Of a stretch of DNA of 64,000 nt, positions 32,729 through 41,522 are shown piece after piece. Location of the stretch: positions 1,188,085 through 1,252,084 of the forward strand of contig NZ_FPAS01000001.1 of the NCBI RefSeq assembly GCF_900116425.1. Reading direction: 5' to 3'. The notes beneath the pieces were generated by a model. The model searched no databases and was not told the origin of the DNA. It was given only the letters and a program-made list of their open reading frames with translations. Position numbers and translations under genes: made by a program. Within the stretch, counting starts at the first letter, position 1. Every line of letters begins with the position of its first letter. The DNA is from Lishizhenia tianjinensis (GTDB taxonomy: Bacteria; Bacteroidota; Bacteroidia; Flavobacteriales_D; Crocinitomicaceae).

Positions 32729-33475
32729 TTAATTTCCTTCAATCACTTGCCCTTCACCTTCAATTGTCTTTTCAATTGCATTTGGTGTTCCGTATAGAAA
32801 AACATTTCCTTTGTTCACCAAATTCGCTTTCACATTATTGGTCCCTTCTACATTTAAATGAAGGTCACCAACCGTATTACTGTACACCTCCAGTTCATCC
32901 GCCACCTTTATATCTTGGGTAGAACCATAGGCGTTCGATTTAATACTCAAGCCCAAATCGCTTACTTGCCCCTTTAAATTGAAATCCACATTCCCATAGC
33001 TGGCATCTAAAAACAACTTATTCGCATTCACATTTAGATCTATGCTTCCCGCTCCAGAATGAGCTAAAACAAAGAGATTTGGGTAATTCAACACTCCCTC
33101 ATTATGCAGTTTTTCAGAGATATCTAAGTAAACGTATTCTAGGGAAGACAAATGAATCCGTACCTTGATAGGGGCATTATAATTTCTTAAAAAGGCACAT
33201 TTATTAGCATTCCTTATGCTTAAAACACCTCCTGTACTATCCAAATCCACCAATCCAATTAAATTCCTGCCTCCAATTACTTCAAGTTTAGCAACATTGC
33301 TTTCAACCAGTTCAAAATCTATTTTTTCGTTTAAACGCAAACTGTCAAAATCAGAAATCGCATAGGTCAAGGTATCTTTTTCTCCCGAAAATTTCCAACA
33401 AGATCTTTCCTCCTTCTTTTTACAGGAAAAAGTCAAGATGACCACACATAATATGAACCAAAACTTACTTTTCAT
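32729..33475 (-). CDS. GIN-domain (DUF2807) lipoprotein
   Basis: I start it at 33475 (MKSKFWFILCVVILTFSC), giving a lipobox with Cys18 followed by a basic stretch. The remainder is the repetitive beta-helix 'head GIN domain / putative auto-transporter adhesin' pattern, with regular strands such as LFVLAHSGAGSIDLNVNANKLF and LHLNVEGTNNVKANLVNKGNVFL. These proteins are envelope-located with no proven function. Its start overlaps the end of the PagL-like gene by 11 bases, so they form one operon. Confidence 0.82.
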   Translation of the reverse strand: MKSKFWFILCVVILTFSCKKKEERSCWKFSGEKDTLTYAISDFDSLRLNEKIDFELVESNVAKLEVIGGRNLIGLVDLDSTGGVLSIRNANKCAFLRNYNAPIKVRIHLSSLEYVYLDISEKLHNEGVLNYPNLFVLAHSGAGSIDLNVNANKLFLDASYGNVDFNLKGQVSDLGLSIKSNAYGSTQDIKVADELEVYSNTVGDLHLNVEGTNNVKANLVNKGNVFLYGTPNAIEKTIEGEGQVIEGN

Positions 33476-34547
33476 GGAAGGTATAGTTAATTCCATATTC
33501 TAAATAATCGGCTTTACCAAAATTGGCTTTAATTGCAAATTGCACAGCCCATTTATCATTGAAATGATACCTGGCACCTACCTTCTGATAGAGCCAACCG
33601 GCGATATTCAAATCGTTCTTCACATAGCCTCCTAAACCTGCAAAAAGATCCAAACGATCAAAACTTAAAACATAGGCCGTATACAATCCAACCTGCAATA
33701 ATTCCCCTTGTTTAATCACCCGATTGGGAAACATTTTCGCTTGGGCTTGGTTGGCGATAAATTCTACACCTAAATCGTAGGACCAATACTTACTTTTATA
33801 TTTGGTTCGAATTGCCGATAAACTATAAACACTCGAAACTTTTTGCAATAAGGGATAAACATCCTTTCTGGAATACACCCCTAAAATTCTCCAGTGCGTA
33901 ACATCCTTCCTTAAAGCCTTGAAAGTGGCATATTCTTCCGTCTCTGCATCTCCAATAAACTGAGAAACTCCTAATTGTACATAGGGTAAATTCACTCCCA
34001 AATTGGGCATTTTACTGGCACCATTTGAAAAATGCATCACGTGAAAACCGAAGTGTAGGTGGGTTTGTTCCCATTCATAATTCATATTCAAACCTAAACG
34101 AACCGCTAAATTCAAATGACTACCTATGGCGTTATTTTTTGGGTTGTGCTGCACATCATAGATTTTCTCTACCCAAGCCAAACCAGCACCGCCGTACACA
34201 GAGGGATAGAAAAGACTTTTGCTCAAAGGAACATCTACAAAATATAAACCCGCTATCCCTTTACCAAGTAAGTTCTTATTTCCGAGAGAAGTAAAATGTA
34301 CATCCAATCCATAGGTGGGTTGATTCATAAGTTGCTGCCAGTACTTTCCGTCCTTTCCTAAAAAACTTAACCTAAAATTCAAGGCACCTGTATGTTGTTG
34401 CGGCAAATGGGCCATAACAGATCTATGGGCCAATAAAAAACCTCCAGCTCCATGTATACTTAAAGCATAATTCTTCTTTTGCGCAATTCCAGTAAAAGAA
34501 AGCAACATAAGCATGCATAAAATGTAAAAGTTTTTCATACTGCGCAT
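33465..34547 (-). CDS. PagL-like lipid A deacylase / acyloxyacyl hydrolase family barrel
   Basis: The 360-aa protein has a signal peptide ending SFTGIAQ and an outer-membrane barrel. The segment HVMHFSNGASKMPNLGVN matches the PagL H-x-S-N active-site region (catalytic His/Ser), which removes an acyl chain from lipid A. I start it at 34547 (MRSMKNFYI); the box TATTTTTG ends six bases before, and an ATG at 34538 is an alternative. It is clearly longer than proteobacterial PagL (about 170-185 aa), as is usual in Bacteroidota. Operon with the GIN lipoprotein. Confidence 0.8.
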   Translation of the reverse strand: MRSMKNFYILCMLMLLSFTGIAQKKNYALSIHGAGGFLLAHRSVMAHLPQQHTGALNFRLSFLGKDGKYWQQLMNQPTYGLDVHFTSLGNKNLLGKGIAGLYFVDVPLSKSLFYPSVYGGAGLAWVEKIYDVQHNPKNNAIGSHLNLAVRLGLNMNYEWEQTHLHFGFHVMHFSNGASKMPNLGVNLPYVQLGVSQFIGDAETEEYATFKALRKDVTHWRILGVYSRKDVYPLLQKVSSVYSLSAIRTKYKSKYWSYDLGVEFIANQAQAKMFPNRVIKQGELLQVGLYTAYVLSFDRLDLFAGLGGYVKNDLNIAGWLYQKVGARYHFNDKWAVQFAIKANFGKADYLEYGINYTFHEK

Positions 34548-34553
34548 TATGTA

Positions 34554-34561
34554 CAAAAATA
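34554..34561 (-). promoter_or_regulatory. -7 box TATTTTTG of the PagL-GIN operon
   Basis: A consensus -7 box on the minus strand, six bases before the ATG at 34547. The leader should be 0-3 bases long. Confidence 0.6.
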
Positions 34562-34615
34562 AGAAGCTCCTTCTTTTAAGTTTTAGTTTATTTGTAATAA
34601 TTAAAAAAAACAAGG

Positions 34616-38042: not shown

Positions 38043-38999
38043 TTAAAACGAAGGACAACTAATCATCCTGAATTTTGGAGATTTCTTTTTACACGGAATC
38101 GTTAACCCAAGAGAAACTTCATGTGCTCCTCCAGAAACTCCGTTATTTAATTGAGAAACGGTAATATCATAACTATAGCCCACTTTAAAATCTTCGAGCT
38201 CTATACCTACCAATAAGATAAAGGCGTCTCTATTCCTTAAGAAGGCACCCGCCGTAAAAGCTGAATACTTTACATAAGTACCCAAGTTTAATTGCTGAAA
38301 GCCTTGTTGGTAAGAATATAATATGGTTGGCATAATGGTAGTTACATTCTGGTATTGCGACTTAGACCCTAAAGGAATGGTAGCAGAAGTATGCGCCGTA
38401 ATACGTATAGGCATCTTGCTTTCACCTACAATCACAGATTCATTAGGTCTGTTTAAGTGCTTCGCTGCAACTCCTACATTAAAGTTTTCATTAAATAAAA
38501 TTACCCCAGCAGAAGCATCAAAAAACCCTCTACTTCCTCCCCTAACAACATCTTGAGTTGCGTAAATGAATCCTCTTCTATCATCTATTTGATCGGCGAA
38601 AGAAAGTTTAGACCAATCCAAAAACTTCTGGTTCCAGGTTGCTTGTGCACCCAAGAGCGCTGTCCATTTTCTATTGATGGGCAAGTGGTAAGAATAAATC
38701 AAGGATAAATGTGAATGATTTAGGGTATTACCAGCCATTCTATCATGTACTGCCGTAACTCCGAACCCTCCACTTATATTGTCGAAATACTGATCGTATG
38801 AAGCTGCAAAACTTACAAAATTCCCTGTAAGTGATGGCCATTGATTTCTATAGTTTGTGGCTATCCTAGGACAACCATTTGTTCCTGCGAAGGCGGGATT
38901 TAAATACAATGGATTAGCATAGAATTGCGAAAATTCTAAATCCTGGGCTACCACCAAGGAGCTAACAATTGTTGCGATGAATACAATAATTTTTCTCAT
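38043..38999 (-). CDS. PorP/SprF family type IX secretion outer-membrane protein
   Basis: The 318-aa protein has a signal peptide ending SLVVAQ, followed by the family hallmark DLEFSQFYANPLYLNPAFAG and RNQWPSL. It then shows the repeated barrel strands, including GGFGVTAVHDRMAG and RKWTALLGAQATW. PorP/SprF proteins bind the secretion machinery or help anchor partner adhesins at the cell surface. It is the third gene of an operon after an ECF sigma factor and a trans-envelope protein whose barrel is of the same kind, four bases downstream of that gene. Confidence 0.92.
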   Translation of the reverse strand: MRKIIVFIATIVSSLVVAQDLEFSQFYANPLYLNPAFAGTNGCPRIATNYRNQWPSLTGNFVSFAASYDQYFDNISGGFGVTAVHDRMAGNTLNHSHLSLIYSYHLPINRKWTALLGAQATWNQKFLDWSKLSFADQIDDRRGFIYATQDVVRGGSRGFFDASAGVILFNENFNVGVAAKHLNRPNESVIVGESKMPIRITAHTSATIPLGSKSQYQNVTTIMPTILYSYQQGFQQLNLGTYVKYSAFTAGAFLRNRDAFILLVGIELEDFKVGYSYDITVSQLNNGVSGGAHEVSLGLTIPCKKKSPKFRMISCPSF

Positions 39000-39003
39000 T
39001 TCC

Positions 39004-40740
39004 TTACATGTTTAAAATGCGTCGTGCATTTCGATTTGGTTTTAATTTATAGCGTAGGGTTAATTGATGACACAAATATTTTGCGTCGTCTATCTGACTT
39101 GTAGAGTAGTCAGCATTATAAATGAACCTTACTCTTTTCGTGTCTACCCCTAACGAAAGAGCTGGGTCAAATTCATTACTTATAGCAGCACCAAAATGAA
39201 ATCCTTTAAAATTCACATTGGCTCCTACCCACAATTCTCTCCAACTTCCTTGCTGTTGAAAAACCGCGTAGGTACTCAACACCGTTTTTTGTGAAAGTGA
39301 TTTATAATCTGTTCCAATTTGTGCTTGATAAAGCTGTTTTGCTTTGAAATCTTGCGTGAGATCGTTGGAATAAATATTATTGAAGTGTCTTCCAACATTA
39401 TCTATACTCGCGCCAAGGTAAAACCATGGTGTATTCAGTAAAAATCCAGCTTGAACATCTCTATACCATAAAGATTGACCGGTTGGTGTTTGGCCTTCTT
39501 CAAAAAACTGTACGGGTCTTCCTCTGTCTAACTCTATCACAGAGCCCATTACTAATTTGCTGGCATTTATTTGCTTGTTTCCAAACCTAAAACGCAGGGC
39601 TGGTTCAAAAGAGAATTTCTCACCTATACTTATTTTAGGTGAATATGTAAATGCTCCTTCCATGGTTTGAACAGCACCATTGTTGATGATGTTATGGTTA
39701 AGGTCAACCCCTATCCCTCCTTTTAACTCGTAGACGTAAGTATCAAAGGAAAATCTATTTGAAATTTGATTAGAAGCGGTTCCTAAATATTGTCCACGAG
39801 TTGCCCATTGAAACTTAGGTGCAACTTGTGTACCTACCATTCCGGGGTTCACTGTAAAACCTGTTGCAGACGGCAAACTGTAATATTGATCTCTGTAATT
39901 TTTAAGCGCCACGGGGTTGTTCATGGTACGTTTTACATCTCTTCCCAATTCATACAAGGCTCTTTTCAGCGTGAACGCTCTTTTGCTAGCCTCAGATTTA
40001 GAACTCACATTGCTTTGATGAACACTGTTATTTCCATGGTTTCCTGAACTTGAAAGATTCTCAGGCTCTTCCCCTTGAATTTGATTTATAGGATTGGTTC
40101 CAGAATTCTCTATGGCAGCAACAATTTTATCTAATCGTTCTTGGAAAATTTGTTGATTACTAGTGTTAAAAAGCTCCTCATTCTCAAAAATGGAAGTCTT
40201 TAAGATATTCTCTTCAAAATCCTTCTTAGTACGAGCAAGTGCTAAATTTTCTTCAAATTGAGACAGATCGAAAACCTGGTTAGAATTGGCCATAAAGTTA
40301 TTGGCCTCTCCTTCCGAAGTTACACCACCCATAGATAAAGCACTTGTCGCATCAAAAGAAGAAAAAGAATTCGTCGAAGTTGAATTCATTCCAATTTCAC
40401 CTTCAGAAATACTACTTAAATCTAATTGCTTTTCAGCGTATAAGGATTGATTATCCTTTCCGTAAAATAGCGCAAGGCCTGCACCTAAACCGAGAACAAA
40501 TACACTCAGAGCTCCCCAAAGTATAGGAGCTGCTTTTCTTTTGTTTTTAATTAATGCTTGTGTATCGAATTGAACAGGTTCTGCTTCAACTCCAGCCATT
40601 TTCCAGGCGTCCAAGTCAACAGAAAGTTCGGGATGCACGGCGATAAAATCCATCAACATCTTCTCTTGCGCGGGAGAAAGGTTTCCCTCGTGCAATTCAA
40701 ACATCCACTTATCTATGTTTTGGATAGAAGGTTCGCTCAT
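39004..40740 (-). CDS. Trans-envelope anti-sigma-like protein with PorP/SprF-like barrel
   Basis: The 578-aa protein has four parts. Residues 1-70 are an acidic helical segment (SIQNIDKWMFELHEGNLSP) like the cytoplasmic domain of Bacteroidota anti-sigma factors. Residues 71-94 form one membrane helix (APILWGALSVFVLGLGAG). Residues 95-280 are Ser/Asn/Glu-rich, low-complexity and long enough to cross the periplasm. Residues about 280-578 are barrel-like and align with PorP/SprF (DQYYSLPSATGFTVNPGMVG, KGGIGVDLNHN, LWYRDVQAGFLLNTPWFYLGASIDN). The gene overlaps the sigma gene by ATGA. The layout matches the dual membrane-spanning anti-sigma factors (Dma) reported in Bacteroides thetaiotaomicron; sensing of T9SS parts is my inference. 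Confidence 0.78.
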   Translation of the reverse strand: MSEPSIQNIDKWMFELHEGNLSPAQEKMLMDFIAVHPELSVDLDAWKMAGVEAEPVQFDTQALIKNKRKAAPILWGALSVFVLGLGAGLALFYGKDNQSLYAEKQLDLSSISEGEIGMNSTSTNSFSSFDATSALSMGGVTSEGEANNFMANSNQVFDLSQFEENLALARTKKDFEENILKTSIFENEELFNTSNQQIFQERLDKIVAAIENSGTNPINQIQGEEPENLSSSGNHGNNSVHQSNVSSKSEASKRAFTLKRALYELGRDVKRTMNNPVALKNYRDQYYSLPSATGFTVNPGMVGTQVAPKFQWATRGQYLGTASNQISNRFSFDTYVYELKGGIGVDLNHNIINNGAVQTMEGAFTYSPKISIGEKFSFEPALRFRFGNKQINASKLVMGSVIELDRGRPVQFFEEGQTPTGQSLWYRDVQAGFLLNTPWFYLGASIDNVGRHFNNIYSNDLTQDFKAKQLYQAQIGTDYKSLSQKTVLSTYAVFQQQGSWRELWVGANVNFKGFHFGAAISNEFDPALSLGVDTKRVRFIYNADYSTSQIDDAKYLCHQLTLRYKLKPNRNARRILNM

Positions 40741-41219
40741 TGAAATATTGTTAAATCCTTTAATTGTTTTTGCATCTTTTTTCTCGCTCTGTACAAATAC
40801 ACTTTTACTTGAGAATCAGATAAAGACAACATATCACCAATCTCTTGGTAATTATAGCCCTCCAAATCTCGCAGTAACACGATACTCTTTTGAATAGGTG
40901 GAAGTAATTCCAAAACCTTTTCAACGATCTCCTTTGCTTCAAAACTGTGACTCTCTACTCCCCGTTCTGGTAAAGTTTCTGAGTTATACACAGTTCGTCC
41001 TTTTTTCTTTGCAAAGTTGATTAACGTATTGTGTGCAGTTGTAAACATCCAAGACTTGGCCTTAACGGCTTCTATCTTTTTTCTGTTTTTCCAAAGCTTT
41101 TCGAAAACATCTTGTACAATATCATTGCTATCAGCCTCAACCCTGAGGTATTTCAACACATAGCCGTATAACCGACCTGCGTGCTCATTAACAACTTCAT
41201 TATACTCCGATCTCGTCAA
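40737..41219 (-). CDS. ECF-type RNA polymerase sigma factor
   Basis: The 160-aa protein has region 2 (SNDIVQDVFEKLWKNR, SWMFTTAHNTLINFAKK) and region 4 (LLPPIQKSIVLLRDLEGYNYQEIGDMLSLS, then VKVYLYRARKKMQK), the usual helix-turn-helix of sigma70 ECF factors. The start codon is TTG at 41219; no ATG fits the frame nearby. Its last four bases overlap the next gene (ATGA), which encodes the likely anti-sigma partner. A TAACTTTA box at 41260-41267 on the minus strand could be its promoter. Confidence 0.92.
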   Translation of the reverse strand: MTRSEYNEVVNEHAGRLYGYVLKYLRVEADSNDIVQDVFEKLWKNRKKIEAVKAKSWMFTTAHNTLINFAKKKGRTVYNSETLPERGVESHSFEAKEIVEKVLELLPPIQKSIVLLRDLEGYNYQEIGDMLSLSDSQVKVYLYRARKKMQKQLKDLTIFQ

Positions 41220-41522
41220 AAGAATGCCTGCTTTACAATTAAAACAATTTAACTCATCCTAAAGTTACACCCACCCTAAAAAAGATTTTTTTAAAGTGGT
41301 TTCAAGTACATTAGGACGCTTAGTATAAAAGTAATAAAAATTTAACGAACACTTTGTCCTTTAACATTTTAAGAAATTAAAAAGCAGCTATAGCTATGCA
41401 TACCTAATACTAGATTCAATATTTAGTGTAGAAAAAAAACGAATGTATTAGTTAAAAATCTGCGAACTTAAGTATGAAATGAATTTATTTTTCCTTAAGT
41501 TTAGGAGGTAAACTACTAAGAT
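41220..41522. other. Divergent intergenic region, sigma operon / fadD-like gene
   Basis: There is no gene here. On the minus strand a TAACTTTA box (41260-41267) could serve the sigma operon. On the plus strand a TAAGTTTA box (41496-41503) runs into the Shine-Dalgarno-like AGGAGGT (41503-41509) before the acyl-CoA ligase gene. Any autoregulated ECF promoter should lie here, but I cannot identify its motif. Confidence 0.5.
41503..41509 (+). promoter_or_regulatory. Strong Shine-Dalgarno AGGAGGT
   Basis: A full Shine-Dalgarno match 13 bases before the ATG at 41523. Such sites are rare in this window; its overlap with a possible -7 box (TAAGTTTA) makes the role uncertain. Confidence 0.45.

Follow-up and report, generated by a model that had tools for sequence, protein, structure and literature searches.

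In a group of Bacteroidota, the genes for an ECF sigma factor, for a fusion of an anti-sigma-like domain to a PorP/SprF-type barrel and for a free PorP form one operon. We interpret this operon as a self-regulated envelope switch that uses the PorP-type barrel as its sensor, probably for a signal linked to the T9SS, and that raises the supply of shuttle-type PorP; we assign this reading a probability of about 0.6. The locus was analysed in Lishizhenia tianjinensis within a window of 64,000 nucleotides (the whole stretch of DNA under study), and 200 genomes of the same family and 399 of the order were surveyed, from which 75 distinct fusions were read. A partial search of the literature, limited mostly to open papers on PorP or SprF together with anti-sigma factors, gave no description of such a fusion.

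All three genes lie on the minus strand, in the order and at the positions given in an earlier note on this DNA. The sigma factor (40737-41219, 160 amino acids, TTG start) carries the Pfam domains Sigma70_r2 and r4_2 and scores 118.5 bits against NCBIfam NF058625, under the cut-off of 130. TTG also starts the sigma gene in several relatives. The sigma gene shares an ATGA with the fusion gene (39004-40740, 578 amino acids; identified from Pfam, NCBIfam, hydropathy and AlphaFold), and 4 bases separate the latter from the gene for the free PorP (38043-38999, 318 amino acids), which has a signal peptide-like N-terminus and a Pfam match of E=8.9e-55. Elsewhere in the window, a protein with a PagL-like lipid A deacylase domain (Pfam PF09411) is encoded at 33465-34613 on the minus strand. 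The trio is not a chance arrangement, because the same three genes were read with the 75 distinct fusions; a survey for sigma, helix and PorP-like fusions beside porP, which the earlier note had proposed, thus returned a conserved operon. The 4-base overlap between sigma and fusion genes recurs in 67 of 74 loci, and a PorP gene overlaps the fusion gene or starts within 20 bases behind it in all 70 loci in which a PorP was found; the others run up to the end of their contig, or close to it, or were not resolved. Fusions of similar length occur mostly within the family of L. tianjinensis, and some belong to other families of that order. In a sample of the phylum that held few genomes of the family, the L. 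tianjinensis genome gave the only match at E<=1e-25, and a scan of the genome contigs with the fusion yielded nothing beyond one irrelevant partial match.

The C-terminal half of the fusion had been proposed to form a barrel, and structure prediction agrees with this: residues 285-578 (39007-39888, minus strand) are modelled by AlphaFold as a barrel with a pLDDT of about 95, and profile and fold both identify it as PorP/SprF. Pfam PF11751 (PorP/SprF) matches residues 285-564 with E=1.4e-23 (84 bits against a cut-off of 22.3), and NCBIfam TIGR03519 scores 97 against a cut-off of 90.55. The top structural matches are the T9SS translocon chains 8gl6_F and 6h3i_F and FadL (Z about 22, rmsd about 3, 245-257 residues); comparison with a viral fold library gave nothing useful. 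In the tree, the fusion barrels form one clade (100/100), placed with weaker support (96/67) beside a group of twin PorPs described below, and therefore probably arose once from a related PorP. The barrel would be inserted in the outer membrane, although it might instead be degraded or fractionate with the inner membrane.

The other end of the fusion is a predicted sigma inhibitor. Residues 1-50 (40591-40740, minus strand) form three helices with a pLDDT above 90 in the AlphaFold model, for which 49 related sequences served as input, and the N-terminus as modelled has the layout of class I anti-sigma factors, defined as a three-helix bundle followed by a fourth helix (PMC7406223). The domain is homologous to anti-sigma-like proteins linked to sigma genes (hhalign, E=3.2e-15). 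A profile of residues 1-100 retrieves sigma-linked proteins across the Bacteroidota, which have one or two anti-sigma-like domains, a single helix and a tail of low complexity; most are followed by the gene for a separate outer-membrane barrel. Some of these relatives, including L305 and L277, reach zf-HC2 above the Pfam cut-off; the window's own domain matched no Pfam family, zf-HC2 included. The earlier proposal that the sigma factor is paired here with an anti-sigma factor whose sensor barrel is of PorP type is supported; the N-terminus would bind this sigma factor.

A single membrane helix follows (residues about 71-94, 40459-40530, minus strand), seen as a hydropathy peak and as an AlphaFold helix at 61-93. 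The earlier note had allowed that it might be a cleaved signal peptide; as it lies at about residues 73-91, behind 70 residues and a KNKRK stretch, it is not N-terminal, as a signal peptide would be. Hydropathy places a membrane helix at residues of about 67-98 in 75 of 75 fusions. Between helix and barrel runs a tether (residues about 95-284, 39889-40458, minus strand) with a pLDDT mostly under 50. Its description as a low-complexity span holds in that it is mostly disordered, but one helix is predicted within it (160-212, pLDDT about 50-77). Tether length varies from 137 to 272 residues (median 194, never under 137 in the 75 fusions), and mean column identity is lowest here, at 24%, compared with 48% in the barrel and 60% in residues 1-50. 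We infer that a minimum length with free sequence is what a tether that spans the periplasm should show. The same conservation profile bears on a very improbable alternative, that the fusion is mainly a structural part of the T9SS and its N-terminal domain a relic that regulates nothing. The barrel is indeed conserved and the regulatory role of the N-terminus is predicted; however, residues 1-50 are the best conserved part of the protein, they are always encoded next to a sigma gene, and a promoter-like element before that gene is conserved as well.

This element, TGTAAC-N16-TTGTTTTA (41240-41269, minus strand, exact match), is the sole copy of TGTAAC-N16-TTGTT without mismatches in the window. 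The motif, once with N15, precedes the sigma gene in 68 of 73 loci, compared with 0.04% of shuffled sequences, and TGTAAC was seen by eye in the other five. Given this recurrence, the operon is probably autoregulated. A regulon beyond the operon has a weak case, as a search allowing three mismatches gave 32 matches against 21 for the reversed control; exact sites elsewhere in the genome number 3, against 1 for the control. Candidate sites in the genome precede a DUF5686 gene, a pair of small secreted proteins and three small lipoproteins, and taken singly each of these candidate targets is weak. The two secreted proteins adjoin one another downstream of an exact site (L211:1547-3027) and have similar N-termini, and no Pfam family accounts for them. 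The three lipoproteins are in tandem downstream of a degenerate site (C7, L268:994-1386, minus strand), and lipoproteins of like sequence stand behind sites in four further genomes (G004, G010, G046 and G063). In the relative G004, the gene for a type B CTD protein of 189 residues starts some 20 bases past a TGTAAC-N16-TTGTTTTA site (L225:917-1483, minus strand).

The free PorP shares its strand order with the fusion barrel (model from 32 sequences). In the tree it pairs with the PorP that the same genome encodes between porU and gldJ, both in L. tianjinensis and in five relatives. We rejected gldK as the neighbour of this twin, as NCBIfam assigns the gene to GldJ and PorPs linked to gldK fall in a remote clade. 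Forcing the sigma-linked PorPs into one clade costs 1976 units of log-likelihood (p-AU 8.8e-5, 21 genomes). Within these 21 genomes, the mature parts of the two PorPs are identical at a median of 98.3% of positions (range 74-100), and their signal peptides at 23%; G230 was left out of the comparison, its second match not being shown to be the porU-gldJ copy. In 18 of the 21 genomes the twins are more alike than the sigma-linked copy is to its nearest ortholog, and in 16 they are more alike than the porU-gldJ copy is to its own. Several pairs have third codon positions close to saturation; some lineages were therefore homogenised long ago and others recently. In several relatives (L011, L017, L024, L028, L036 and L037) the contig breaks off within the sigma-linked porP, as it would in an assembly disrupted by a second, almost identical copy.

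Our reading of these sequence patterns is that the twin PorPs evolve in concert, through gene conversion and purifying selection. If new copies had been placed behind the fusion again and again by duplication, sister pairs would likewise appear on the tree, but we consider this improbable: that slot is occupied in every locus that has room for it, and the codons of the signal peptides remain different while the mature part is homogenised. It seems that the operon sets how much is made of a shuttle-type PorP, the twin of the porU-gldJ copy.

The genetic tie to the T9SS that had been suggested for the operon is borne out by its PorP-type barrel and by the twin of a T9SS-locus PorP. The signal might nevertheless be a different one, with the PorP barrel reporting barrel assembly or lipid state as a general sensor of outer-membrane biogenesis. 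FadL-like barrels are present in Bacteroidota BAM structures (9n2d, 9hiv), the barrel of related operons is an ordinary OMP_b-brl_2 protein, and the candidate targets include DUF5686 and small lipoproteins. We nonetheless hold this to be unlikely, because no fusion read has any barrel but a PorP and the T9SS-locus twin is part of the operon. In the T9SS-linked switch that we favour, the anti-sigma domain would keep the ECF sigma factor at the inner membrane, and the helix, long tether and PorP-type barrel would anchor the same polypeptide in the outer membrane. Most likely the trigger at the barrel would be contact of type B cargo, or of a T9SS partner, with the PorP-like surface, or else a failure of insertion. 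A change in the barrel would then release the sigma factor, probably through cleavage, and the freed sigma factor would transcribe the operon that encodes it along with a small number of envelope genes, giving more shuttle-type PorP. Release mechanism, signal and regulon are all inferred here. We treat as hypothetical the earlier proposal that T9SS or adhesin occupancy is what the barrel reads and that a periplasmic relay could be dispensed with.

What the barrel would sense may be narrowed further. PorP/SprF proteins of F. johnsoniae carry type B cargo, and one of them serves three orphan cargos (PMC12618676). Of the PorPs encoded by L. tianjinensis, only five lie directly behind one of the genome's 35 type B CTD matches, and the operon itself has no such gene next to it. 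Published roles of PorP/SprF, and type B CTD genes that outnumber the linked PorPs, are the grounds for supposing that the signal is shuttle load, and this step from a PorP barrel to shuttle load is the least certain. We therefore propose only tentatively, at well under even odds, that one polypeptide reaching from sigma factor to outer membrane senses type B shuttle load and answers with more shuttle, kept equal to the porU-gldJ PorP by gene conversion.

The layout had been likened to Dma/Das of Bacteroides thetaiotaomicron (PMC13088901), in which an N-terminal anti-sigma domain, a membrane helix, a disordered tether and a C-terminal barrel follow one another beside a sigma gene. The fusion has its parts in this order; descent, however, is not supported. 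Three Dma1-type proteins, recognised because they lie beside nigD-family genes and an ECF gene, carry barrels of the OMP_b-brl type, and their N-termini show no detectable similarity to that of the fusion; hhalign of the fusion against them gives a probability of 10.7 over 25 columns, in the barrel. Dma proteins have cognate ECF21 sigma factors. The sigma factors are distant, with NF058625 scores of 62.8 bits for the Das1-type and 118.5 for the fusion-linked one. With no homology to these three proteins detected in anti-sigma domain or barrel, we read the fusion as a sensor that resembles Dma but evolved separately and uses a T9SS shuttle barrel.

Related to the fusion operon are Bacteroidota operons with a sigma factor, a one-helix anti-sigma factor and a separate OMP_b-brl_2 barrel (L274-L284, L302-L316), which share the homologous anti-sigma domain and a sigma factor of the same group. 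They differ in that the barrel has its own gene and is not a PorP, and in that many of the anti-sigma-like proteins (L303, L304-L316) have at their C-terminus a conserved basic helix, KLRGxxRK, and then a short strand. L. tianjinensis itself has one operon of this type (L303, C8). PorXY-SigP of Porphyromonas gingivalis (PMC7712824) likewise ties an ECF sigma factor to the T9SS, with proposed signalling from the surface to the sigma factor; it differs in using a two-component relay through PorY and PorX and in having no barrel on an anti-sigma factor. PorP/SprF shuttles (PMC9143113, PMC12618676) share the barrel family, a 14-stranded FadL type, and lack both the anti-sigma domain and the inner-membrane helix.

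Our analysis suggests that the cell could monitor, directly at its surface, what state its secretion shuttles are in. If this is true, the handling of T9SS cargo would be linked directly to transcription across two membranes, the dual-membrane layout would have arisen with different barrels and anti-sigma domains, and the operon would offer a simple test of how the supply of type B shuttles is set.
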